A stretch of 15,614 nucleotides of DNA, from the NCBI GenBank assembly GCA_003696125.1, contig RFHZ01000225.1, positions 1 to 15,614 of the forward strand, written 5' to 3'. A program made the translations under genes and the position numbers. Below the pieces are notes generated by a model. It did not search any database. It worked only from the letters and a program-made list of their open reading frames with translations, and was not told the DNA's origin. Source of the DNA: Nitrospinota bacterium. Its GTDB lineage: Bacteria; Tectomicrobia; Entotheonellia; J063. Position 1 is the first letter of the stretch. Each line of letters begins with the position of its first letter. Below, piece after piece: positions 1,613 through 15,614 of this stretch.

Positions 1613-2584
1613 GTGTATTTTCCAAGGTATCGCGCGCGTCGTCTCCGGGAAAAAGCATTGTTTCGTGATATGGTTCGTGAAACCCACCTGTCGGTGAACG
1701 ATTTCATCTACCCCCTCTTTGTGGTCCCCGGCTTCGGAGTGAAAGAAGAGATCCCTTCCATGCCGACCAACTATCATCTCTCCATCGACCGGTTACTGGA
1801 GGAGGTCAAAGAGGTGAGTGATCTGGGCATACCGGCGGTACTCCTCTTCGGGCTGCCGGAGAAAAAGGACGAAGTCGGCTCAGAGGGGTATGCCGAGGAT
1901 GGGATCGTGCAGCGGGCGGTCAGGGCTCTCAAGAAAAGCTTCCCCGATCTCCTGGTGATTACGGACGTCTGTCTCTGTGAGTATACCAGCCATGGACACT
2001 GCGGCGTGATCGAGAACGGCCGGGTGCATAACGATAAGAGTGTTGAGCTCTTGGCCAAAACCGCCCTCTCCCATGCCGAGGCTGGCGCCGATATGGTTGC
2101 GCCTTCGGACATGATGGATGGCCGGGTAAAGGCGATTCGAGAGATACTCGATCTCCACGGCTTCGATCATATCCCCATCATGGCCTATGCCGCCAAATAC
2201 GCCTCCAGCATGTACGGTCCTTTCCGGGAAGCTGCAGATTCCGCTCCCGCTTTTGGGGATCGCCGTTCCTACCAGATGGATCCGGCTAACAGCCGGGAAG
2301 CGGTACGTGAAGTCGGCCTGGATATCGAAGAAGGTGCGGATATCGTCATGGTGAAACCGGCCCTCTCCTATCTAGACGTCATCTATCGTGTCCGGCAGGC
2401 CTACAACCTCCCGCTGGCCGCGTACAACGTGAGCGGAGAGTTCGCCATGGTCAAGGCTGCGGCAGCCCAGGGCTGGATCGATGGGGAACGGGTCATGATG
2501 GAGATCCTCCTGAGCATCAAACGGGCAGGAGCCGATATCATCATCACCTACTTTGCCAAAGAGGCGGCCCGCCTGCTCCGCTGA
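1613..2584 (+). CDS. hemB: Delta-aminolevulinic acid dehydratase (porphobilinogen synthase)
   Basis: HemB condenses two 5-aminolevulinates into porphobilinogen, the step before HemC. The 323-aa product has the standard family length. Both active-site lysines are visible: K195 in [15 protein letters not shown] and K248 in [13 protein letters not shown], the Schiff-base lysine. Cys120, Cys122 and Cys130 in [14 protein letters not shown] form the catalytic three-cysteine zinc site, so this is the zinc-dependent class and not the Asp-rich magnesium class. The GTG start at 1613 is chosen because AGGAGAG (1601-1607) lies 5 bases upstream and because the protein then begins with a normal HemB N-terminus (YPRxRxRRLR-like). 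It follows hemD by 82 bases on the same strand, consistent with one hemCDB operon. Confidence 0.96.
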
Positions 2585-2625: not shown

Positions 2626-4452
2626 ATGATTCCACGGAAACTCCGTGAGACACTCCGGGCATTGCTCAGCCAGCATGAACTCGATCGCCGGCGCATCGAG
2701 GAAGAGGGGAGGGTCTACGTCGAATTTGGCGGTACAGAGGATAGCAGACTGCTGGAGCGGATGGGGATTCAGGTCGATACGCTGGGACCGGAAAAGGTCA
2801 TCTTCCTGTGGGATGAAACGAGTGAACTGGAGATCGGAGGGTACCTGGTCCTGGACAACCTCTCTCGAGGGAGGCCGGCCCTGGGGGGCATCCGGATGCA
2901 ACCGGAGATCACGCCACAAGACATCGCCTTCCTGGCGCGGGGGATGACCCTGAAAAATGCCGCCGCGCAGCTCGACTTTGGCGGTGGCAAAGCCGGCATC
3001 ATCGCTGATCGAGCCAGGCTCACCGACGCAGAACGCGAAGAGGTCATCCGGACCTTTGCCCGCCTGCTCAGGCGTTACACCAACGACTATATCCCCGGTC
3101 CGGATGTGGGGACCAATGATGAAGACATGGCCTTAATCGCCATCGAGAACGGGCTCGATAACGCCGTGTCCAAGCCGGTGCGCATGGGAGGCAATGCGAT
3201 CGATGCCTCAGGAGCCGCGGCAGAAGGGGTGGTGGTTGCCATCGAGACCATCCTGGAACAGTGGGAAAAGCTGCGTGTCCTTCCCCAGTTTCGCCACCAG
3301 AAACCCTTGCGCCTGCGCGGGGCAACCGTCATCATCCAGGGCTTTGGTGCAGTCGGAGCCCATGTGGCCCGGCTACTGGCCGAAAGGGGAGCGAAGATCA
3401 TCGGTATCAGCGATCGGGAAGGCTATCTTTACTGCGCAGAGGGACTGGCCATCGACCGCCTGCTACGTCGCCAGGAAGAGGGAGTGGTGACCGATAGAGA
3501 GTACATGGCCTATTACCATAAGCCGTATGAGGGAAAGCGAGGAGAGGTCAAGTTCAGCAATGCCCGGGATGAGCTCCTCCGGGAGAGTGCAGACATCTTT
3601 ATCCCTGCTTCCCCCAAGCGAGACTATCTCCAGCTCTACGGCCAACCGCTCGACCTCAGCCGGGTAGGGCGATGGCGTTTGATTGTAGAAGGGGCCAATA
3701 CCTATTCGAGCCGGGAAGAGGATAGGAAGGCGCGGGAAGCCCTGGAAACGGCCCTGTACAAAGAGCAAGGGACCTTTCTGGCCACCGATTACCTGGTCAA
3801 TGCGGGTGGGGTCATCTTTGCCGCCTTTGAAAAGCTCGAGCAGGCCGATCGTTGTCTTCCTCCCCGGGAACTGCTCGGCAACCGGGAAGCCATAGAAGAT
3901 TTCCTCCAGCAGCATGCCACAGAAATCGCAGAGATCGCCAGCGCAAGAAAGCAGAGAGCTCACGAAAAACTGACTTCAGTTATCCGGCAGAATATCCGTG
4001 AGCTGATCGAAGAGTTGACCCGCAATCCGGACCTCCTCCCCTGTCAGGCTGCCGAGATGATCAGCCGTCGTCGTATCCGGAAGCTGGTGAAGGATGTCCT
4101 CTCCCCCAAGATCAAGACGATCCAGAGTCATGTCCCCATCAAGCTGGCGGCACAGGAGATGACGGCAGCAGAATTCGATCTGGTGGCGGTGCTTTCCGAA
4201 GACAACCGGCTCATCGGCGTGGTTACCCCCTGGGACATCTCCCGGGCCATTGCGGAGGATCGCCTACAGGAAGAAGTGGCGCAGATTATGGCGCGCGAAC
4301 CGGTGGTAGCCAGACGGGATGAGACGGTGCAGGAAGCTGCCCTCAAACTCAAGGAGAAGCGGATATCGGCGATGCCGGTCGTCGATGAACATGGACAGGT
4401 CATCGGGATTGTCACCGCCAGCATGCTCGCCGCTCTCTTTGTCGAGCGCTAA
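2626..4452 (+). CDS. Glu/Leu/Phe/Val-family amino-acid dehydrogenase fused to tandem CBS domains
   Basis: Expected to catalyse NAD(P)-linked oxidative deamination of an amino acid to a 2-oxo acid plus ammonia, or the reverse, in the cytoplasm. At 608 aa it is about 170 residues longer than ordinary glutamate dehydrogenases (410-450). Residues about 25-460 are the enzyme: GGIRMQP (87-93), MTLKNA with K110, GGGKAGI with catalytic-type K122, and GPDVGTNDEDM with D160. The Rossmann motif GFGAVG is at 239-244; D263, at the end of the next strand, suggests NAD. VEGANTY and VNAGGVIFAAFE (391-402) follow. A helical linker leads to two CBS repeats (about 488-547 and 552-606; VVTPWDISRAIAE and IVTASMLAAL), a module that usually binds AMP, ATP or S-adenosylmethionine. 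The lysine that holds the glutamate side chain is Leu86 here (ALGGIRM), as in leucine dehydrogenases, so glutamate is not an assured substrate. GAGGT lies 6 bases before the ATG. It starts 41 bases after hemB and may be cotranscribed with it. Confidence 0.88.
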   Translation: MIPRKLRETLRALLSQHELDRRRIEEEGRVYVEFGGTEDSRLLERMGIQVDTLGPEKVIFLWDETSELEIGGYLVLDNLSRGRPALGGIRMQPEITPQDIAFLARGMTLKNAAAQLDFGGGKAGIIADRARLTDAEREEVIRTFARLLRRYTNDYIPGPDVGTNDEDMALIAIENGLDNAVSKPVRMGGNAIDASGAAAEGVVVAIETILEQWEKLRVLPQFRHQKPLRLRGATVIIQGFGAVGAHVARLLAERGAKIIGISDREGYLYCAEGLAIDRLLRRQEEGVVTDREYMAYYHKPYEGKRGEVKFSNARDELLRESADIFIPASPKRDYLQLYGQPLDLSRVGRWRLIVEGANTYSSREEDRKAREALETALYKEQGTFLATDYLVNAGGVIFAAFEKLEQADRCLPPRELLGNREAIEDFLQQHATEIAEIASARKQRAHEKLTSVIRQNIRELIEELTRNPDLLPCQAAEMISRRRIRKLVKDVLSPKIKTIQSHVPIKLAAQEMTAAEFDLVAVLSEDNRLIGVVTPWDISRAIAEDRLQEEVAQIMAREPVVARRDETVQEAALKLKEKRISAMPVVDEHGQVIGIVTASMLAALFVER

Positions 4453-5195: not shown

Positions 5196-7016
5196 ATGAG
5201 GTGGCAGATACGCAGTCTGATCTGGAGTCTCCTCCTGATCGCTGGACTCGTGGGACTCGCTGCGGCCCAGTATCAGGTGCAGGAAAAAGGCAGGGCGGCT
5301 GCCGGTGCCGGTGCTACCCATTACTGGCCGGTGACGGCTGATACGGTGGTAGACCTCTCCCCAACGGTCTCCATGAAGCACTTCCAGTACTGGCCGGGAG
5401 GGAGCCTCCATCACCAGCCGATCATCGTCCCCTACATCCAACACAGTCCGGGTCCATGGGCTTCGGACCTCTTGCTTGTCGATGAAAACACGGCCACACA
5501 ACTGGATTGTCCAACCCACATGATGCCGCCCCAGGAGAGTGGGCTTCCCAACTCCGGCTACTGGGGAGATCTGACCTGTGATAAGGTGGCGGCCTGGCAA
5601 TTCCTGGGAGAGGTGGTGAAGATCGACGGGAGAAAGATCCTCGATCAAGCCCCCAATGGCGTCAGCCCCTTATTCACCGTAGAGATGGTGAAGGCAACAG
5701 AACAGTCTTACCGACCCCTACAGCCCGGAGATGCTGTCTTGTACTGGAGCGGCTATGATGACAAATACGATCTCCCCTTACCAGAGGGAAGACGCCTGCT
5801 GGCCGATCCCATTGCCGGGACCTCGCCAGTCTGGCCAGCACCCGATTTTGATACGCAGGATTACATCGGGAGTAAAGGGATTCGACTGGTAGGACTGGAC
5901 AGCCCCAGCGTAGGTGCCTTTGGGAAACCCAAGTATTCCCTTCCTGGCCCGGCTGGAATGTATCAGAACCCCCTGGCTTTGGAGAGTCATCTGGGACTCT
6001 TCAAACATGGTGGCCTCGATGTCGAAGGGTTGATGAACCTGCACCTCGTGCCCAACGGTGCCCTCTTCATCGCCCTGCCGGTCAAACACAAGGGCTCACC
6101 GACCGTGGAGACCCGAGCCGTGGCCATTACCGACTTGAAACTGGCAGCCGAGTTGATGAAGGCGGTGCGGGCCAAGCGGGTGGTAGATCTCTCCGTGATC
6201 CTCTCCATGCGGCACCCGGTCTGGTGGACGGGAAGGGGAGTAGGGAACTACGTCTTTCCCTATCATGCGGTCATCCCTGTGAATTACTTCAACGGACCTT
6301 TCGGTCCGTACTGGGTCAACACGCATATCGTGGATTCCCGCACCGGAACCCACGTGGATCCACCAGCCCACTACGGCCCACCGCCAGGCTTCGACTTCAA
6401 CCGTTACGGCGAGGAGGCCAAAGCGGTCCTCAAAGAGTTTGAGGCCAAGTACGGTCAACTGAAAACCACCGACATGACCTCTGACAAAGTGCCGATCCAC
6501 TACTTCATGGGCCCGGCGCGGGTCATCAACGTCCAGTACCTGGTGGGGACCACGGATCCGAAGGACTGGCCAGCCTCACCGGAGATCACCGTGGACGATA
6601 TCAAAGCGCATGAAAAACTCTATGGACCCATCAAGGCAGGTGAAGTGGTCCTCTTCCATACCGGCCACACCGATGCCCATTTCAGGGCCTTTGAACGCGG
6701 GAGACCAGATATGACCATCAAAGCTCCCCTGGATGGACTGGCAGAAGGATGGCCTGCTCCCACCCCAGAAGCGATCCGCTACCTGGCCCAAAAAGGGGTA
6801 AAACATGTGGGAATCGATGCGCCGGATATGGGCTCGGTCGATCAGGCTGCCGCGACCATGACCCACTGGGTGGCAGCCAACGAAGGGATGATCTTCACCG
6901 AGTTCCTGATCGGTGTAGGACAACTCCCCCCCACAGGAGCGTTCTACGTCTTCTTAAACCCGAAGATCGAGAACAACCATGGGGGACCAGGAAGAGCCAT
7001 CGCCATCCTGCCCTGA
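5196..7016 (+). CDS. Exported tandem-domain cyclase-family metal hydrolase
   Basis: Two copies of the cyclase/kynurenine-formamidase fold (Pfam cyclase family, which includes isatin hydrolase) in a 606-aa protein, about twice the single-domain length. Residues 1-24 form a Sec signal peptide (MRWQIR, hydrophobic core, cleavage after LAAA), followed by an Ala/Gly-rich linker, so the enzyme acts outside the cytoplasm. Domain 1 (about 50-312) starts VVDLSPTVSM and ends TVETRAVAI. Domain 2 (about 328-604) starts VVDLSVILSM and ends GPGRAIAI. The family metal motif HxGTHxDxPxH reads RTGTHVDPPAH (382-392) in domain 2, nearly complete, with the first His replaced by Arg. In domain 1 it reads NTATQLDCPTH (98-108), losing both leading His. 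Domain 2 also keeps HTGHTDAH (488-495) and E569. AGGAGG at 5182-5187 fixes the ATG start. The substrate is unknown; amide, lactam or lactone ring opening is typical of relatives. Confidence 0.87.
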   Translation: MRWQIRSLIWSLLLIAGLVGLAAAQYQVQEKGRAAAGAGATHYWPVTADTVVDLSPTVSMKHFQYWPGGSLHHQPIIVPYIQHSPGPWASDLLLVDENTATQLDCPTHMMPPQESGLPNSGYWGDLTCDKVAAWQFLGEVVKIDGRKILDQAPNGVSPLFTVEMVKATEQSYRPLQPGDAVLYWSGYDDKYDLPLPEGRRLLADPIAGTSPVWPAPDFDTQDYIGSKGIRLVGLDSPSVGAFGKPKYSLPGPAGMYQNPLALESHLGLFKHGGLDVEGLMNLHLVPNGALFIALPVKHKGSPTVETRAVAITDLKLAAELMKAVRAKRVVDLSVILSMRHPVWWTGRGVGNYVFPYHAVIPVNYFNGPFGPYWVNTHIVDSRTGTHVDPPAHYGPPPGFDFNRYGEEAKAVLKEFEAKYGQLKTTDMTSDKVPIHYFMGPARVINVQYLVGTTDPKDWPASPEITVDDIKAHEKLYGPIKAGEVVLFHTGHTDAHFRAFERGRPDMTIKAPLDGLAEGWPAPTPEAIRYLAQKGVKHVGIDAPDMGSVDQAAATMTHWVAANEGMIFTEFLIGVGQLPPTGAFYVFLNPKIENNHGGPGRAIAILP

Positions 7017-7075: not shown

Positions 7076-8176
7076 TTAAGAGGGGAGCAGAACCATGGTA
7101 TGGGTTTCCCATCCCAAAACGATCCTCTCTGCAAGCCGATGCCTCTGCTCCTGAAAATGGTGAGGGTCCATATCGACCTTGAGCACGCTCTCGGCTCCCA
7201 CCCGCACCAGGAGTCGCATGCAATTCCCCTTATAGATACCCTGCTCAAGACTCCCCTGGACCCGGTTCGGGGTGCTCGCCTCCCCGGGGAATACCCGGAT
7301 CCTCTCCGGCCGCAGGGAGACGAAGAGGACATCTCCCCTCTCCGGCTGCGGAGCGTGACCAGGCAGGGTGCTCTTCCGGGCACGGAGGACAATTCCCTGC
7401 CAGTCGAGGACGATCTCCTCCCCGTGCACGGCGGTGACCCGACACGTCAGCAGGTTCGTCTCTCCCACAAAATCGGCGATAAACTTGGTGGCAGGACGCT
7501 CGTACAGCTCCACAGGACTCCCCACCTGCTCCAGACGGCCCTGATGCATGACCACGATCAGATCGGACATGGTTAAGGCCTCTTCCTGATCGTGGGTGAC
7601 ATAGATGAAGGTCTTTGCCGTTTTGACCTGGATGCGCTTCAGTTCGAGCTGCATCTGCTGGCGCAGCTTTAGATCCAGTGCTCCCAGGGGTTCATCCAGC
7701 AATAAGACGGCCGGATCCGGAGCCAGGGCCCTGGCCAGTGCCACCCGTTGCCGCTGTCCACCGGATAACTGATCCGGTTTGCGATCGGCGATATCGGGTA
7801 ATTCCACCATCTCCAGAAGCTGGGTAACCCTCTTGGGGATCTCCGCCGGCCTGTATCGTTTCATCTGCAAACCAAAGGCGATGTTCTGGCTGACGGTAAG
7901 ATGAGGGAAAAGGGCGTAGTCCTGGAAGACCATATTCACGTTGCGACGGTAGGGAGGGACCTTAGAGACTTCCTGCCCTTCCAGGAAGATCCTGCCGCTG
8001 GTAGGGCGGAGAAAGCCGGCTATCATCTTCAGCGTCGTCGTCTTTCCACATCCGCTCGGCCCCAGCAAGGTGACAAAAGCCCCCCGCCGCACCGCCAGGG
8101 ACAGGCGCTCTACCGCCGTGACCTCCCCAAATCTCTTTGTCACGTTGTCCAGTTGAATGATGATGTCGTCCTGCAT
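7076..8176 (-). CDS. potA: ABC transporter ATP-binding protein, PotA type
   Basis: This is the ATP-hydrolysing subunit of an importer of the spermidine/putrescine (MOI/CUT1-like) group, on the cytoplasmic face of the membrane. The 366-aa protein shows Walker A GPSGCGKT (39-46), Q-loop VFQDYALFPH (83-92), signature LSGGQ (137-141), Walker B VLLLDEP (157-163), D-loop and the switch His195 in VTHDQEEA. A C-terminal TOBE_2-type domain (about 285-360) contains VSLRPERIRVFP. Length and domain order match PotA. It lies downstream of the two permeases on the same strand, but 226 bases separate it from permease 2, and that gap holds a palindromic repeat, so it may be expressed partly on its own. Only a weak Shine-Dalgarno (GGGTGAG, about 13 bases upstream) precedes the ATG. 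The transported substrate cannot be deduced from this subunit; the symbol denotes family. Confidence 0.9.
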   Translation of the reverse strand: MQDDIIIQLDNVTKRFGEVTAVERLSLAVRRGAFVTLLGPSGCGKTTTLKMIAGFLRPTSGRIFLEGQEVSKVPPYRRNVNMVFQDYALFPHLTVSQNIAFGLQMKRYRPAEIPKRVTQLLEMVELPDIADRKPDQLSGGQRQRVALARALAPDPAVLLLDEPLGALDLKLRQQMQLELKRIQVKTAKTFIYVTHDQEEALTMSDLIVVMHQGRLEQVGSPVELYERPATKFIADFVGETNLLTCRVTAVHGEEIVLDWQGIVLRARKSTLPGHAPQPERGDVLFVSLRPERIRVFPGEASTPNRVQGSLEQGIYKGNCMRLLVRVGAESVLKVDMDPHHFQEQRHRLAERIVLGWETHTMVLLPS

Positions 8177-8245
8177 AAGTAACTATTACTCACCCTTTTG
8201 CACTTTGAGCCATCTTCAGGCCATGCGTGACCGGAAGAACTTTTT

Positions 8246-8311
8246 ACCGCCGAGCACGCAGAGAACGCCGGGTAAGCAAAAACGCTCTGCGCCCTCGGCG
8301 TCCTCGGCGGT
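8246..8311. repeat. GC-rich imperfect palindromic repeat element (REP/MITE-like)
   Basis: The outer arms ACCGCCGAG (8246-8254) and CTCGGCGGT (8303-8311) pair perfectly. Inside them, CGCAGAG (8257-8263) pairs with CTCTGCG (8285-8291). The right side holds an extra CTCGGCG copy (8294-8300), giving an asymmetric internal loop. A T-run precedes the left arm. The style (ACCGCCGAG...CGCAGAG) resembles dispersed intergenic repeats recalled from many environmental genomes; copy number cannot be checked in one window. It occupies the potC-potA gap and would form a stable hairpin in the transcript. Confidence 0.6.
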
Positions 8312-8402
8312 GTAGACCTGGAGACAGCGCGAAGTTCGTGGGACAAAAAAGTGTTCAAACTGTTAGTCATACTTACTTAAAAACCCCTGAGGGACCATAT
8401 CC

Positions 8403-9188
8403 TCACCTGCGACGTAGAAAGCGCTCGGTAACCAGCCCTGCCGTGACGGTGATCAGCAAGACCAGCGTGGAGATGGCATTGATCTCCGGGCTCATGCCGA
8501 AGCGGAGCTTGGCAAAGATCAGCACCGGTAAGGTCAGAGAATATCCGGCCAGAAAGTAGGAACGGATGAAATCATCAAAGGAGATGAGCAGGGAGAAGAC
8601 GGTTGCTCCGACCAGGGCCGGCTTTAAAAAGGGGAGCGTCACCCGGCAGAAGGTGATCAGCTCGTCAGCGCCTAAGTCCATGGCCGCTTCTTCTAAGGAA
8701 GGATTCATGGCTTTGAGCCGGCTCAGGATCATGATGGCCACAAAGGGAACGTTGTGGATGGTGTGGCCGAGAATCAAGGCGAGCGTCCCGGGCTCTATGG
8801 CGAGGAGTTTGATAAAGAGGCGCAAAGAGATGCCGGAGATAATCCCGGGAATGACGGCGGGAAGGAGCATAAGACCAAAGGCGATCCCTCGTCCCCAAAA
8901 GGTCACCCGCCCCAAAAACACCCCGATGTTCAATCCGATCAACAGGGAGAGGATCGTGGAGACCACCGCGATGATGACCGAATAGCCGAAAGCCCCCATG
9001 ATCTCCGTATCCTGCAGCACCGTCCCGTACCACTTCAGGGTAAAGTGTCGGATGGGAAAGCCGATGAAGCGTGAATCCTTGAACCCCATAAGGACCATGA
9101 CCAGAATAGGCAGAAAGAGGTAAAGCACCAGGGCCCAGTACAGCGCCTTGAGGCCCAGGCTATCATACCATCGTCTCTCTCCTCTCAT
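8403..9188 (-). CDS. potC: ABC transporter permease 2, PotC type
   Basis: Inner-membrane channel subunit of the polyamine-type importer, 261 aa. About six hydrophobic segments are visible: near 16-36, 66-92, 101-122, 135-155, 190-208 and 236-254. The EAA coupling loop that contacts the ATPase reads EEAAMDLGADELITFCRVTLP (about 166-186), typical of PotC/YdcV permeases. The frame stays open 75 codons further upstream, but the start at 9188 is preferred: its ATG overlaps the upstream permease's stop as ATGA, the hydrophobic N-terminus follows directly, and the upstream extension is an antisense-like Pro/Arg-rich sequence lying within the upstream permease gene. The short terminal LRRR tail is normal. 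Translational coupling to permease 1 indicates the two assemble as a heterodimer. Confidence 0.93.
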   Translation of the reverse strand: MRGERRWYDSLGLKALYWALVLYLFLPILVMVLMGFKDSRFIGFPIRHFTLKWYGTVLQDTEIMGAFGYSVIIAVVSTILSLLIGLNIGVFLGRVTFWGRGIAFGLMLLPAVIPGIISGISLRLFIKLLAIEPGTLALILGHTIHNVPFVAIMILSRLKAMNPSLEEAAMDLGADELITFCRVTLPFLKPALVGATVFSLLISFDDFIRSYFLAGYSLTLPVLIFAKLRFGMSPEINAISTLVLLITVTAGLVTERFLRRR

Positions 9189-10123
9189 AAGAGCTTCTCT
9201 CCGCTGATCCTGATCACCCGCAGGCTTACTCCCGCTATCCCCAGCATTACCAGGAGAAGGATGAAAGCCAGGGCACATCCCATGGGCCATTCTCCCTGGG
9301 AAGTGGCGGAAAAGTAATTTCCGATCGACTCGGCAAAGAGGGTGGTATGGGGGCCTCCCAGGAGCACCGGAACGGCATACAGGCCGGAGGTCAGGATGAA
9401 AACGAGCAAACAACCGGTGAAGATCCCCTCCTTGGACAGGGGCAGGGTCACCCGCAGGAAGCGCTGGAAGGGGGTAGCCCCCAGGTCTGCAGCCGCCTGT
9501 AACAGGGAGGAATCGATCTTTTCAATGCTCGAATATAACGGCAAGAGCATATAGAGGATGGTGACGTAGAGTACCCCCATGGACAGGGAAAAAGAGGTGT
9601 ACATGAAGGGAACAGGTTCATCGATCACCCCCAGCCACCGCAAAATGGCATTGAGTAACCCCTTGTTCCCCAACACGATCATCCAGGCAAAGGTGCGGAT
9701 GATATAGCTGGCCCAGTAGGGAGCCAGCAGGAGCAGCAGATAGCGGAGCTGCTTTTGCTGTTCGGCAACCTGGGCGATGAAATAGGCGATGGGATAGACC
9801 ATAATCAACGTAGAAAAGCTCACCAAAGTGGCAAAGAGCAGGGTCCTGCCAAAGGCGGTAAGGTAGACCGATCGTCGGAAAAAGGTAAGGTAATTTTGCA
9901 GCGTAAACGTCGTGCGGCTCTCGTCGATGACCGGAAACTGGGTATAAAAGCTGATGACCGCCATCTGCAACAGGGGAAGGAGATGGGCTCCCAGGAGCCA
10001 GAGGAGGGGAAGCGATCCCAGAGCCCAAAACCGGGCTCGATCTGAGGTGGTAAAAAGCGTCAATAACCGTTGATAGGCTCTCCAGTCCCGTAGTACATCC
10101 CACCAGGGCTTTTGGAAAAACAT
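9185..10123 (-). CDS. potB: ABC transporter permease 1, PotB type
   Basis: Partner inner-membrane permease, 312 aa. A soluble N-terminal stretch of about 32 residues is followed by about six hydrophobic segments (near 35-58, 92-118, 127-151, 181-200, 235-256 and 282-303). The EAA loop is AAADLGATPFQRFLRVTLPL (210-229), the PotB form. The periplasmic loop after the first segment carries FTLQNYLTFF, common in this family. GGAAGGAT lies about 8 bases upstream of the ATG. The gene follows the binding-protein gene after a 79-base gap holding a hairpin, and overlaps the next permease by 4 bases. The N-terminal soluble stretch (WWDVLRDWRAYQRLL) is slightly longer than in E. coli PotB. The substrate is not determined by this subunit. 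Confidence 0.92.
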   Translation of the reverse strand: MFFQKPWWDVLRDWRAYQRLLTLFTTSDRARFWALGSLPLLWLLGAHLLPLLQMAVISFYTQFPVIDESRTTFTLQNYLTFFRRSVYLTAFGRTLLFATLVSFSTLIMVYPIAYFIAQVAEQQKQLRYLLLLLAPYWASYIIRTFAWMIVLGNKGLLNAILRWLGVIDEPVPFMYTSFSLSMGVLYVTILYMLLPLYSSIEKIDSSLLQAAADLGATPFQRFLRVTLPLSKEGIFTGCLLVFILTSGLYAVPVLLGGPHTTLFAESIGNYFSATSQGEWPMGCALAFILLLVMLGIAGVSLRVIRISGEKLL

Positions 10124-10145
10124 CTACTGATCCTTCCAGGATCTG

Positions 10146-10184
10146 CCACTCCCGACCTCCTTCTCGGAAAGAGGCCGCGAGTGG
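10146..10184 (-). other. Intercistronic hairpin between binding-protein and permease genes
   Basis: Plus-strand arms 10146-10159 and 10171-10184 pair as 6 bp (CCACTC/GAGTGG), two central pairs with flanking mismatches, and 4 bp (CCTC/GAGG), with an 11-base loop. No U-run follows on the minus strand. In binding-protein transport operons such hairpins commonly stabilise the upstream message or cause partial termination, so that the binding protein exceeds the permeases. That role is inferred here. Confidence 0.45.
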
Positions 10185-10202
10185 GAGGGGGGCTAGAAGA
10201 GA

Positions 10203-11306
10203 TTAGGCCGCCTTAATTTCTTCCACGGCACGATCAAACAGCTTGTATTTAAACTCTACGGCAACGGGTGAGAAGAAGGTAATCCGCTCCAGTTCTTCCT
10301 GGGAGAGGGAGGAGGCCTTCCGCTCCAGCTCGGTCAAACCCTTTTCTGCTCCCACGAAGGTGGAGACAAAGCCGGTCGCTTTGGTCAGATAGGTCCCCTG
10401 GCGCGGATCAGACATGATGGCATTCAGGAACTTGTAGGCATTCTCCCGGTTGCGGGCCCCTTTGACCACGCTAAAGGTATAGACAAAACCGAATCCCCCT
10501 TCTCGTGGAATCGTATAGCGGATGGGGAAACCGTCCATGATCAGGCGTGCAGCAGGACCAGACCAGCATTGGGCCACCCAGATATCTTCATTGATAAACA
10601 TCTGCTGCACCTGTGCCCCTGAATCGTAGAAGGCCCGTACCAGATGTTTATGCTTGATCAGGAAGTTCTTCGTCGCTTCCACCGCCCGTCTCCCCACCTC
10701 AGGGCGTTTCAGATAGCTGACCATGGTGCCATCGTAGCCGAGGTATTGCATGGCAATGGAGAGGAAATCCTGCACCTGATAGGCGATCTTACCCTTATAC
10801 CGTTCATCAAACATGACGTCCCAGGTATCGACCTTCCCCATCTTCTCCTCGTTATAGGCCATCCCTTCTGATCCCATGAGGATAGGGACCCCCCACCGCT
10901 TCCCATCCCGGATCATCCAATCCGCTTCCCGGTACACAGGATTAATGGTCTCCCAGCTCTTGATCTTGCTCTCATCCAGCGGTTCGATGGTCCCCTGGTT
11001 GATAAACTGGGGAAAACGATGACCGGCAACGGTGACAACATCTGCCGTAAAATTCGGTTTTTCGGCCACCAGAAGATTCAACTCCTTCCCTTGATCATCG
11101 ATGAGTTTTACCCGGATGCGGATCCCTGTCTCTGACTCAAAACTCTGGCGAAACTCTTTGGTGATGAAGTTATTGTAAGTCCACACCCGCAGTTCTTGAG
11201 CTGCCGAAGCGCTTCGCGGTATCCAGAAAAGCGGCTGGAAGGCTGCAGCGGTTGCCAAAGCCGTCGTTTTCATGAACCTTCGCCGACTTATCGTCGTCTC
11301 TCTCAT
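10203..11306 (-). CDS. Tat-exported extracellular solute-binding protein, PotD type
   Basis: Periplasmic ligand-capture protein of the importer, 367 aa, the usual length for spermidine/putrescine-type binding proteins. The N-terminus carries a twin-arginine signal SRRRFMK (residues 8-14), a hydrophobic stretch and a likely SASA|AQE cleavage near 35-36, so it would be exported folded. The mature part opens ELRVWTYNNFITKEF, then SETGIRIRV, typical of the family's first beta-alpha units. Later marks are WGVPILMGSEGMAYNEEK and ENAYKFLNAIMSDP. The frame is open 46 codons further upstream, but the ATG at 11306 is chosen because GGAGGAGGA lies about 6 bases before it and the Tat signal begins there. 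The binding segment equivalent to the E. coli PotD STYY region reads TVAGHRFP, so polyamine specificity is doubtful; another small nitrogenous compound is possible. Confidence 0.9.
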   Translation of the reverse strand: MRETTISRRRFMKTTALATAAAFQPLFWIPRSASAAQELRVWTYNNFITKEFRQSFESETGIRIRVKLIDDQGKELNLLVAEKPNFTADVVTVAGHRFPQFINQGTIEPLDESKIKSWETINPVYREADWMIRDGKRWGVPILMGSEGMAYNEEKMGKVDTWDVMFDERYKGKIAYQVQDFLSIAMQYLGYDGTMVSYLKRPEVGRRAVEATKNFLIKHKHLVRAFYDSGAQVQQMFINEDIWVAQCWSGPAARLIMDGFPIRYTIPREGGFGFVYTFSVVKGARNRENAYKFLNAIMSDPRQGTYLTKATGFVSTFVGAEKGLTELERKASSLSQEELERITFFSPVAVEFKYKLFDRAVEEIKAA

Positions 11307-11421
11307 CTCTTCCTCCTCCCCTGTGATCTGAATGATTACTCCTCCTCTCCATGAGCCAGAGACCGAACCCTGGATGGCTCGCTCCCTCTCTTCTATAAGG
11401 GATTCGATTTTTCCTGCCTTA

Positions 11422-11439
11422 CCCAAACGTCCCAAACGT
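11422..11439. repeat. Tandem 9-base direct repeat upstream of the binding-protein gene
   Basis: CCCAAACGT occurs twice head to tail, about 115 bases before the binding-protein ATG and on the promoter side of that divergent operon. Such short tandem sites can be a regulator's paired half-sites, but two copies could also arise by chance. No protein is assigned. Confidence 0.4.
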
Positions 11440-11503
11440 AACACAGCCCACTCTGATTTGCAAGGAGAAAAAGGGGAGGGAAAACCGGCTCACTTTGGGG
11501 GAA

Positions 11504-12598: not shown

Positions 12599-14677
12599 GT
12601 GGGTATACGCGTTGGTATCGATATTGGCGGGACCTTTACCGATATTCTGGCTCTCGATGCCACCGGAAAGCTCTCCACCCTCAAGGTCCTCTCGACACCA
12701 GAAGATTTCAGCCAGGGCATCCTCCGCGGTCTGGAACGCCTCCTCCCTACCTTTGCCGACACCATACCGGAAGAGGTGATTCACGGCACCACCGTAGCCA
12801 CCAATGCCATCCTGGAGCAGAAGGGGGCCAAGACCGGCCTGATCACCACCAGAGGATTCCGGGATGTCCTCGAGATTCGACGCATCCGCATGCCGGAACT
12901 CTACAACCTGCGCTGGGAAAAACCGAAACCGCTGGTCGAAAGGCGCTGGCGCCTGGAGGTCGGGGAACGCATCGATCACCGGGGAGAAATCTTGGTCCCC
13001 TTGCAGGAGGACGAGGTCGAACAGGCTCTGGAGAAACTCCGCCGGGAAGGGGTGACCTCGGTGGCGGTCTGCCTGATCAACTCCTTCCTGAACCCGGTGC
13101 ATGAACAGCAGATCGGTGCCTTCATCCGGGAGCGGTACAGCGACCTGTACTGTTCCCTCTCCCACCAGATCCTCCCCGAGATCAAGGAGTACGAACGGAC
13201 GAGCACCACGGTGATCAACGCCTATGTGATGCCGGTCGTACAACAATACCTGGACACCCTGGAGCAGGGACTACGGCGGCTCGGGTACACCAGACCCCTT
13301 CTGATCATGCAGTCGAACGGCGGGATCATGTCGGCCACGGTGGCCCGGGAAAGACCGGTCCATATCATCGAATCCGGACCGGCGGCCGGGGTGATCGGTG
13401 CAGCGGCGGTGAGTCGAAAATGCGGCTATCCTAACGTGATCACCCTCGACATGGGGGGAACCACGGCCAAGGCGTCCATCATTGAAGGAGGCCTCCTCTC
13501 CCGCTCACCCGAGTACGAGGTAGGGGGAGGCATCACGGTGGGGAGCCGGCTGATCAAAGGGGGAGGGTACCTGGTCCGGGCCCCGGTGATCGACATCGCC
13601 GAGGTGGGAGCCGGGGGAGGGAGCATCGCCTGGATCGATAAGGGTGGACACCTGCAGGTCGGCCCCCAGAGCGCCGGGGCGATACCCGGGCCGATCTGCT
13701 ACAACCAGGGCGGGGAAGAGCCGACCCTCACCGATGCCAATCTCCTGCTCGGGTACCTGAATCCGGCCTATCTGGTCGGTGGTGCCCTGGCCCTGGAACG
13801 GGAAAAAGCGGCCCGCATCCTCTCCCGGAAGATCGCCACCCCGCTCTCCCGTTCCCTGCCCGAAGCCGCCTACGGGGTACACATCCTGGCCAATGCCAGC
13901 ATGATGCGGGCAGTCCGGGCGGTATCGACCGAGCGTGGTCGTGATCCGAGGGATTTTGCCCTGATGGCTTTTGGGGGGAATGGTCCGGTACATGCGGCCG
14001 CCCTGGCCCAGGCCCTGGAGATGAAGACGGTGATCATCCCTCCTTTTCCCGGTGTCTTTAGTGCCTTTGGCCTCCTCGTCTCCGAGGTGGAACACCATCA
14101 CGTGCAGACCTACTACCGCTCGCTGCATAGACTCGACCTGGCGGAGTTCAATGGGATGCTCGCCACCCTGGAGGCAGAGCTACGCGAGACCCTGTCCCGC
14201 GAGGGATATGCGGCAGAAGCGATGGTGATCGAACGTGCCGTTGATCTCCGCTACGCCGGCCAGTCATTTGAGCTGACCGTCCCCCTTGACCCGGGTATCA
14301 TCACCGCCACCACCCTAGAAAAGCTGGCTACCCGTTTTGGTGAAGAGCACCAGAAAACATACGGACACAAGGCGGATAACGAACCGATCGAACTGGTCAA
14401 CCTGCGTCTCGTTGCGCGAGGTCTCCCCACCAGGCCTCGCTTTCCTGAGCAACTCCAGCCGGATACACATGCCCTCTCCCTGTCCCCTTCTCGACCGGTC
14501 TATTTCGGTACCGCCTACGGAGAGGTGGAAACGCCGATCAGAAGCCGGGAGAGCCTGGGGATGGAGGGGGAAGAGGGACCCATGATCATCGAAGAGTACG
14601 ATGCCACCATCGTGGTACCCCCGGAATGCCGGGTGAAGAGAGATGCCTGGCACAACGTGATCATCACCCTGCCTTGA
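12599..14677 (+). CDS. hyuA: Hydantoinase/oxoprolinase A subunit (N-methylhydantoinase A family)
   Basis: Large ATP-binding subunit of the ATP-dependent cyclic-amide hydrolases (N-methylhydantoinase, 5-oxoprolinase; acetone carboxylases are relatives). It would phosphorylate and activate the substrate in the cytoplasm. The 692-aa length is typical. Visible marks are the N-terminal actin-like phosphate motif GIDIGGTFTD (6-15), IHGTTVATNAILEQKGAKTGLITTRGFRDVLEI (about 61-93), SNGGIMS (239-245), ESGPAAGVIGAA (258-269), the second phosphate motif DMGGTTAKAS (284-293), EVGAGGGSIAW (335-345) and GPQSAGAIPGPICY (355-368). The GTG at 12599 is chosen because AAGGAG (12588-12593) lies 5 bases upstream and only seven residues separate it from the GGTFTD motif, as in relatives. 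The hyuB gene begins 11 bases after the stop. The exact substrate (hydantoin, oxoproline, other) cannot be told. Confidence 0.93.
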   Translation: MGIRVGIDIGGTFTDILALDATGKLSTLKVLSTPEDFSQGILRGLERLLPTFADTIPEEVIHGTTVATNAILEQKGAKTGLITTRGFRDVLEIRRIRMPELYNLRWEKPKPLVERRWRLEVGERIDHRGEILVPLQEDEVEQALEKLRREGVTSVAVCLINSFLNPVHEQQIGAFIRERYSDLYCSLSHQILPEIKEYERTSTTVINAYVMPVVQQYLDTLEQGLRRLGYTRPLLIMQSNGGIMSATVARERPVHIIESGPAAGVIGAAAVSRKCGYPNVITLDMGGTTAKASIIEGGLLSRSPEYEVGGGITVGSRLIKGGGYLVRAPVIDIAEVGAGGGSIAWIDKGGHLQVGPQSAGAIPGPICYNQGGEEPTLTDANLLLGYLNPAYLVGGALALEREKAARILSRKIATPLSRSLPEAAYGVHILANASMMRAVRAVSTERGRDPRDFALMAFGGNGPVHAAALAQALEMKTVIIPPFPGVFSAFGLLVSEVEHHHVQTYYRSLHRLDLAEFNGMLATLEAELRETLSREGYAAEAMVIERAVDLRYAGQSFELTVPLDPGIITATTLEKLATRFGEEHQKTYGHKADNEPIELVNLRLVARGLPTRPRFPEQLQPDTHALSLSPSRPVYFGTAYGEVETPIRSRESLGMEGEEGPMIIEEYDATIVVPPECRVKRDAWHNVIITLP

Positions 14678-14688
14678 GGAGGAGAGAG

Positions 14689-15614
14689 GTGGAGCAGAGT
14701 CGCGTCGATCCGATTACCCTGGAGCTGATCAAAAACGCCCTGCAGTCGATTGTGGATGAGATGGCCCTCACCGTGGTCCGCACCGCCCATTCGGGAGTGA
14801 TCAAGGATGTGATGGACTTCTCTACCGGTTTCTGTACCGCCAGTGGAGAGATGATCGCGCAGGGGCTGACCCTGCCTCTCCACCTGGGAGCGATTCCAGA
14901 TGCCATGACCGCCGTGCTCCGCAAATACGGCACCAATGTCGCTCCAGGAGACATCATCATCATGAACGATCCCTTTGATGGGGGGATGCACCTGCCGGAT
15001 ATCTTCATGTTCAAACCCCTCTTCTACCGGGGAGAGTTGATCGGCTTTCCGGCCGTGGTCTGTCACCATACCGATGTGGGGGGACGCGTGGCAGGAAGTA
15101 ATGCCAGCGACTCTACCGAGATCTACCAGGAGGGACTCCGCATCCCTCCCCTCAAGCTCTACGAGGCCGGTGTGCCCAACGAGACCCTCTTTGCCCTGAT
15201 CGAGAAGAACGTGCGGGTACCGGTAAAGGTTCTGGGGGACCTGCGCGCCCAGCTCGCCGCCTGCCACATTGCCGAGCGGGAGTATCTCCGCCTGGTGGAG
15301 CGCTACGGTGTGCAGGAGTTGAACCGGTACCTGGAGGAACTCCTCAACTACACGGAGCGCCTGGCCCGGGCCGAGATTGCCGCCATGCCGGACGGGGAGT
15401 ACTCCTTTACCGATTACATCGATAACGACGGGATCGATCCGGATCCGATCCTCCTGCAGGTCAGGGTCACCGTGCACGGGGACACGATGACGGTCGATTT
15501 CAGCGGCACCTCACCCCAGGTCAAGGGAGCGATCAACTCCACCTTCTCCTTCACCAAGTCGGCCGTCTACCTCTCGGTACGTTGCATCATGGATGCCCAT
15601 ATCCCGAACAACGC
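14689..15614 (+). CDS. hyuB: Hydantoinase/oxoprolinase B subunit, 3'-truncated by window edge
   Basis: Partner subunit of HyuA that completes ring opening of the activated cyclic amide. The first 308 codons are in the window, open to its end; the family normally runs 510-580 aa, so about half is missing. The GTG start is set by AGGAGG (14677-14682), 6 bases upstream, and the product begins VEQSRVDPITLELIKNALQSI, the standard HyuB N-terminus. Conserved metal/active-site segments are present: NDPFDGGMHLPD (93-104) and CHHTDVGGRVAGS (125-137), followed by EIYQEGLRIPPLKLYEAG (about 144-161) and the family's DGEYSFTDYIDNDG (235-248) and VDFSGTSPQVKGAIN (269-283). It starts 11 bases after the hyuA stop in the same operon. 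An open frame on the opposite strand here is only a shadow. Confidence 0.94.
   Translation, partial: MEQSRVDPITLELIKNALQSIVDEMALTVVRTAHSGVIKDVMDFSTGFCTASGEMIAQGLTLPLHLGAIPDAMTAVLRKYGTNVAPGDIIIMNDPFDGGMHLPDIFMFKPLFYRGELIGFPAVVCHHTDVGGRVAGSNASDSTEIYQEGLRIPPLKLYEAGVPNETLFALIEKNVRVPVKVLGDLRAQLAACHIAEREYLRLVERYGVQELNRYLEELLNYTERLARAEIAAMPDGEYSFTDYIDNDGIDPDPILLQVRVTVHGDTMTVDFSGTSPQVKGAINSTFSFTKSAVYLSVRCIMDAHIPNN

Follow-up and report, generated by a model that had tools for sequence, protein, structure and literature searches.

Gene Structure and Genomic Context

The window, that is, the whole stretch of DNA analyzed, comprises 15,614 nucleotides of a contig assigned to a Nitrospinota bacterium. 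One of its forward-strand genes (2626–4452) is a single reading frame with no internal stops or frame breaks, starting at an ATG at position 2626, a few bases downstream from a GAGGT sequence. The Pfam families ELFV_dehydrog_N, ELFV_dehydrog and both CBS repeats were all recognized in the predicted 608-residue protein with scores far above the gathering thresholds (Table 1), the CBS model matching two stretches (E 9e-24). PF02812, PF00208 and the two CBS repeats also exceeded the gathering score in seven further members of the family described below. The first-pass annotation, which described an amino-acid dehydrogenase continued in frame into two CBS repeats, is therefore borne out, and the frame or assembly error that could have separated the CBS part is excluded by the occurrence of the whole-length fusion in many independent genomes of several phyla. 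The fusion is a real, conserved kind of enzyme. It was also proposed to be an uncharacterized architecture, and this holds so far as the open-access literature goes, in which we found no paper describing an ELFV dehydrogenase combined with a CBS pair. The fusion is thus apparently undescribed and new, its component parts being already known.

Table 1. Features of the dehydrogenase-CBS gene and of its upstream neighbor.
Feature	Position in the window	Strand	Basis
hemB, 41 bases upstream of the fusion gene; context, not part of the enzyme	1613..2584	+	Pfam ALAD, E 5e-155
Whole gene, 608 aa, ELFV amino-acid dehydrogenase with C-terminal CBS pair	2626..4452	+	Open frame, Pfam, full-length homologues
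ELFV_dehydrog_N, substrate-binding/dimerization domain	2848..3141	+	Pfam PF02812, residues 75-172, E 1.3e-24
Residue 86, Leu in the window, Met in most members; place of GDH Lys89/LeuDH Leu40	2881..2883	+	Alignments
Lys110, equivalent of the alpha-carboxylate lysine GDH Lys113	2953..2955	+	78/78 members; alignment
Lys122, equivalent of the catalytic lysine GDH Lys125	2989..2991	+	78/78 members
Gly158-Pro159-Asp160; Asp160 is the catalytic Asp	3097..3105	+	G158 and D160 in 78/78
ELFV_dehydrog, NAD(P)-binding domain	3202..3858	+	Pfam PF00208, residues 193-411, E 3.2e-25
Dinucleotide loop GFGAVG, residues 239-244	3340..3357	+	Glycines 78/78
Val396 to Ala399, places of GDH Val377 and Ser380	3811..3822	+	Val396 and Ala399 in 78/78
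Helical connector, dehydrogenase to CBS pair	3859..4083	+	Residues 412-486; modelled helices 420-484
CBS1, residues ~487-546	4084..4263	+	Pfam; alignment to MJ0100
GVVTPWD, residues 531-537, CBS1 ribose/phosphate motif	4216..4236	+	Conservation counts; motif role PMC4276868
CBS2, residues ~547-605, without Asp at the last place of the motif	4264..4440	+	Pfam; residue 600 L/I/M/V in all members

The fusion gene is preceded by a hemC-hemD-hemB run, with a terminator-like hairpin between hemB and the fusion gene (four such matches were found, close to the 2.7 expected by chance). This arrangement of hem genes was repeated in none of the compared neighborhoods, and an operon inference was rejected. 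The adjoining HemB is 69–70% identical to the proteins of four genomes of the same class, which are among its best matches; the contig therefore fits its genome bin, and a misbinned foreign contig was ruled out. Elsewhere in the window lie a 606-residue protein with two tandem putative cyclase (PF04199) stretches in one chain (5196–7016, +), an apparently complete polyamine-type ABC transporter (7076–11444, −) and, within 12599–15614 (+), a hydantoinase A family protein resembling the caprolactamase alpha subunit (578 bits against a cutoff of 1000). The components of the transporter are an ATPase, a PotF/YdcS-like substrate-binding protein and two permease-like frames, and Pfam supports all of them but one of the permeases. 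The hydantoinase A family protein overlaps the start of a frame running off the contig, which probably encodes a partner subunit.

No pathway clue emerged from the genes next to family members in the compared neighborhoods. In many Lokiarchaeota genomes (loci L062–L098), a DUF1464 gene and a gene for a pterin-binding/DUF4346 protein lie upstream, with convergent CofH-like radical SAM genes, a RibD-like gene (RibD_C) and an amidohydrolase gene downstream. These neighbors are conserved within the Lokiarchaeota only and are absent beside the bacterial members; the neighbor in Anaerolineae is an endonuclease III-like gene. In two unrelated bacteria, a panB-like gene, assigned to its family by eye from the sequence, lies two or three genes from the family member (L029, 3717–4583, +; L100, 7991–8845, +). 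PanB uses 2-oxoisovalerate; two loci are too few for this proximity to be used, and it may be due to chance.

Distribution and Phylogeny of the Family

A scan of species genomes yielded four full-length relatives, 45–48% identical to the window protein over its whole length, from metagenome-assembled genomes (MAGs) labelled Lokiarchaeota, Chloroflexota, Anaerolineae and Brocadiia. A profile built from these five sequences was used to scan further genomes (E up to 1e-60); the genomes, mostly MAGs, are samples, the following counts refer to these samples, and the groups are named as in the titles of the genome records. Full-length members were detected in 40 of the 227 genomes of the phylum of the Lokiarchaeota MAG, every one of them in its own class (40/83). 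They were present in 17 of the 20 genomes of one order of Anaerolineae and in 43 of the 396 genomes of that class as a whole, and in 2/294 genomes of the phylum of the Brocadiia MAG. A further 385 genomes, sampled as relatives of the source genome, contained no member. No match spanning 80% of the query was found in plasmids, and viral contigs gave no match. The matches that fell clearly short of the full length of the model were fragments at contig ends, with one exception (genome G1266; L122, 2812–4677), in which the frame strays within CBS2, probably because of a frameshift or a misassembly of this MAG. Among the profile matches away from contig ends in the scanned genomes, none was a family member devoid of CBS domains. 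The Pfam search and survey of phylogenetic spread proposed in the first-pass annotation thus reveal a fusion recurring in one class of Lokiarchaeota and in Anaerolineae, and sporadic elsewhere. The fusion is fixed across two domains of life.

In a phylogenetic tree of the dehydrogenase part, all family members formed one clade (support 97/95), apart from the GDH-like and LeuDH-like proteins tested. The Lokiarchaeota sequences constituted a single group (96/100) adjoining the Chloroflexota sequences (90/84), and the sequences of the window and of the planctomycete phylum fell outside this grouping. The branches leading to the outgroups are very long, which makes the root of the tree and any direction of transfer between domains uncertain.

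Catalytic Residues and Substrate Class

Residue conservation was counted over 78 members, or over the 37 representatives retained after thinning at 80% identity. The catalytic residues Lys110, Lys122 and Asp160 and the glycines of the Rossmann GxGxxG motif showed no variation in the 78 members; the enzyme is therefore probably active.

In GDH, Lys89 and Ser380 bind the gamma-carboxylate of glutamate, the corresponding residues in LeuDH being Leu40 and Val294 (PMC2723916; roles also described in PMC8784811). At these two places (Clostridium symbiosum numbering), all family members with a letter there have Met/Leu86 and Ala399, and the nonpolar residues characteristic of LeuDH, PheDH and ValDH at positions 40, 291 and 294 are represented by Met/Leu86, Val396 and Ala399. 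The place of LeuDH Ala113 is occupied by Gly158 in the alignment, as in Rhodococcus PheDH, the residue being Ala in LeuDH and GDH. Both gamma-carboxylate residues being replaced by nonpolar ones, the family is probably not a glutamate dehydrogenase. These replacements suggest that the side-chain pocket is roomy and nonpolar, and the enzyme probably acts on a nonpolar amino acid, either aliphatic or aromatic. Changing positions 40 and 294 alone fails to convert GDH into LeuDH (PMC2723916), so the substrate class is not readable from two residues. The catalytic N-domain of the whole-protein model, obtained from five sequences, had a mean pLDDT of 61.5, too weak for pocket geometry, and the pocket residues are accordingly those given by sequence alignment.

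The CBS Pair and its Candidate Ligand

The CBS part is the least conserved region of the protein, with a mean majority-residue frequency of 0.58–0.61, versus 0.72–0.81 for the catalytic domains. Despite these variable surroundings, CBS1 carries the ribose/phosphate motif GhhTxx(D/N), in the form GhhTxWD in essentially every member, and its key residues are 97–100% conserved in the representatives: G531 in 37/37, T534 in 36/37 (one Ser) and D537 in 36/37 (one Asn). In the corresponding motif of human cystathionine beta-synthase, GVVTAID, the Asp contacts the ribose of AdoMet and the Thr its carboxylate (PMC4276868). The canonical motif was not found in CBS2, in which residue 600 is hydrophobic in all members. 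At CBS2 residues 597–600 (window positions 4414–4425), most members have S-x-(D/N), shifted by one residue relative to the canonical motif, with D or N at position 599 in 32 of the 37 representatives. The CBS-pyrophosphatases (CBS-PPases) bind one AMP per module, and the motif is not needed in both CBS repeats (PMC11172384). With the motif kept in CBS1 and the Asp missing from CBS2, each CBS module is likely to have one canonical site, at which an adenosyl ligand would bind. The first-pass annotation had named conserved nucleotide-contact residues and a modelled nucleotide pocket as tests: the CBS1 motif is retained and the CBS pair fits ligand-bound structures, with one canonical site rather than two.

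The modelled CBS pair (pLDDT ~85) superimposed on MJ0100 with methylthioadenosine (MTA) or SAM (Z 20.4, rmsd 1.4 over 119 residues, 35% identity) and on AcuB with AMP/ADP (Z 18.8). By sequence, too, the CBS pair of the window is closest to MJ0100 (E 1.3e-20). The members disagree as to the closest CBS protein: for the CBS pairs of other members, MJ0100 is outranked by MJ1225 or by further archaeal CBS proteins, and the nearest solved structure therefore cannot name the ligand. AMP/ADP/ATP and SAM/MTA are both plausible ligands, and energy charge is one of two good options.

Proposed Mechanism and Alternatives

We propose, with a probability of about 0.6, that the family is an active NAD(P)-dependent L-amino-acid dehydrogenase, probably acting on a nonpolar substrate, that is set allosterically through the connector by an adenosine-containing ligand at Thr534 and Asp537 of CBS1. 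The ligand would bind between the CBS repeats, at the one canonical site; binding would alter the packing of the CBS module against the helical connector (residues 412–486), and this would in turn shift how the cleft separating the two catalytic domains opens and closes. Ligand binding and the steps that follow it are inferred, as are catalysis, the substrate class and the direction of regulation.

The energy-charge switch envisaged in the first-pass annotation, with AMP or ADP set against ATP, has in our view a nearly even chance. The CBS1 motif is intact, a basic residue is found at position 557 in 31 of the 37 representatives, and adenosine and guanosine phosphates have been described as the commonest CBS ligands; in the CBS-PPases, AMP and ADP inhibit and ATP activates (PMC11172384). 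The presence of a single canonical site and the competing resemblance to SAM/MTA-binding proteins count against it. If the ligand were SAM or MTA, the enzyme would answer to methionine or one-carbon status rather than to energy charge. We regard this as a serious but rather doubtful possibility: MJ0100, solved with MTA and SAM, is the best CBS match of the window by sequence and, among CBS entries, by fold, and the family motif GVVTxWD resembles its GIITSWD, but this ranking does not extend to the other members, and AcuB with AMP/ADP scores nearly equally, fold and rank failing to separate the ligands.

It is unlikely that the CBS pair serves only to assemble the enzyme into an oligomer or a filament and has no ligand that matters for regulation. 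CBS pairs commonly dimerize, and the low conservation of this region would suit such a role, but the ribose-contact residues stand out as conspicuously conserved against that variable background. A conserved CBS1 motif can nevertheless be retained for the fold. If the enzyme were simply a glutamate dehydrogenase to which an accessory domain had been added, this would explain why the catalytic part has its best matches, by profile and by fold, among GDHs. We consider this unlikely, because the equivalents of both Lys89 and Ser380 are missing throughout the 78 members, the NCBIfam GDH equivalog models gave scores of 118.8, 110.3 and 67.7 against cutoffs of 620, 750 and 536, and the source genome encodes a separate GDH-like protein (L002) that retains both the Lys and the Ser.

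It has been proposed that the ancestors of the Asgard/Loki archaea lived, and gained their energy, by degrading amino acids syntrophically (PMC7015854). More broadly, and tentatively, the allosteric dehydrogenase proposed here may represent an undescribed family, common in one Loki lineage and shared with Anaerolineae, that uses an adenosyl signal, read through the CBS pair, to gate the removal of ammonia from nonpolar amino acids. If so, it would sit in Asgard archaea with a proposed amino-acid-degrading ancestry, and a deamination valve would make sense in such a life. It would also be an independent solution to the control of amino-acid deamination, quite different from that of animal GDH, and would provide a single-protein handle on how such cells adjust the oxidation of amino acids to their energy state or to their methyl-donor status.

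Relationship to Known Systems

The best fold match of the family is to the hexameric NAD(P)-dependent GDHs, such as those of Thermotoga, Pyrobaculum and Thermococcus, with which it shares the two-domain ELFV fold, the catalytic Lys/Lys/Asp and the Rossmann loop. It differs from them in lacking the gamma-carboxylate Lys and Ser, in forming its own clade, and in having extra length within the catalytic part in addition to the CBS pair. The leucine and phenylalanine dehydrogenases (1leh, 6acf, 1c1d) resemble the family in being nonpolar at positions 40 and 294, and the Rhodococcus PheDH has the same GPDV with Gly; these enzymes, however, are about 350–370 residues long and have no CBS domains, and the overall sequence of the family is nearer to GDH.

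Animal glutamate dehydrogenase is controlled by purine nucleotides, and the family would resemble it as an amino-acid dehydrogenase under presumed nucleotide control. The comparison drawn in the first-pass annotation is nevertheless loose: the residues recognizing the glutamate side chain are absent in all family members, and animal GDH has no CBS domain, whereas the control element of the family is a separate C-terminal module. IMP dehydrogenase, CBS-pyrophosphatase and cystathionine beta-synthase are also enzymes joined to a CBS pair in which GhhTxxD occurs, but their catalytic domains are unrelated to that of the family, in which the canonical Asp is present in CBS1 only. In MJ0100 (3kpb/3kpc/3kpd), by contrast, the motif is present in both repeats (GIITSWD and GIVTSED), and the solved fragment is a CBS pair alone.
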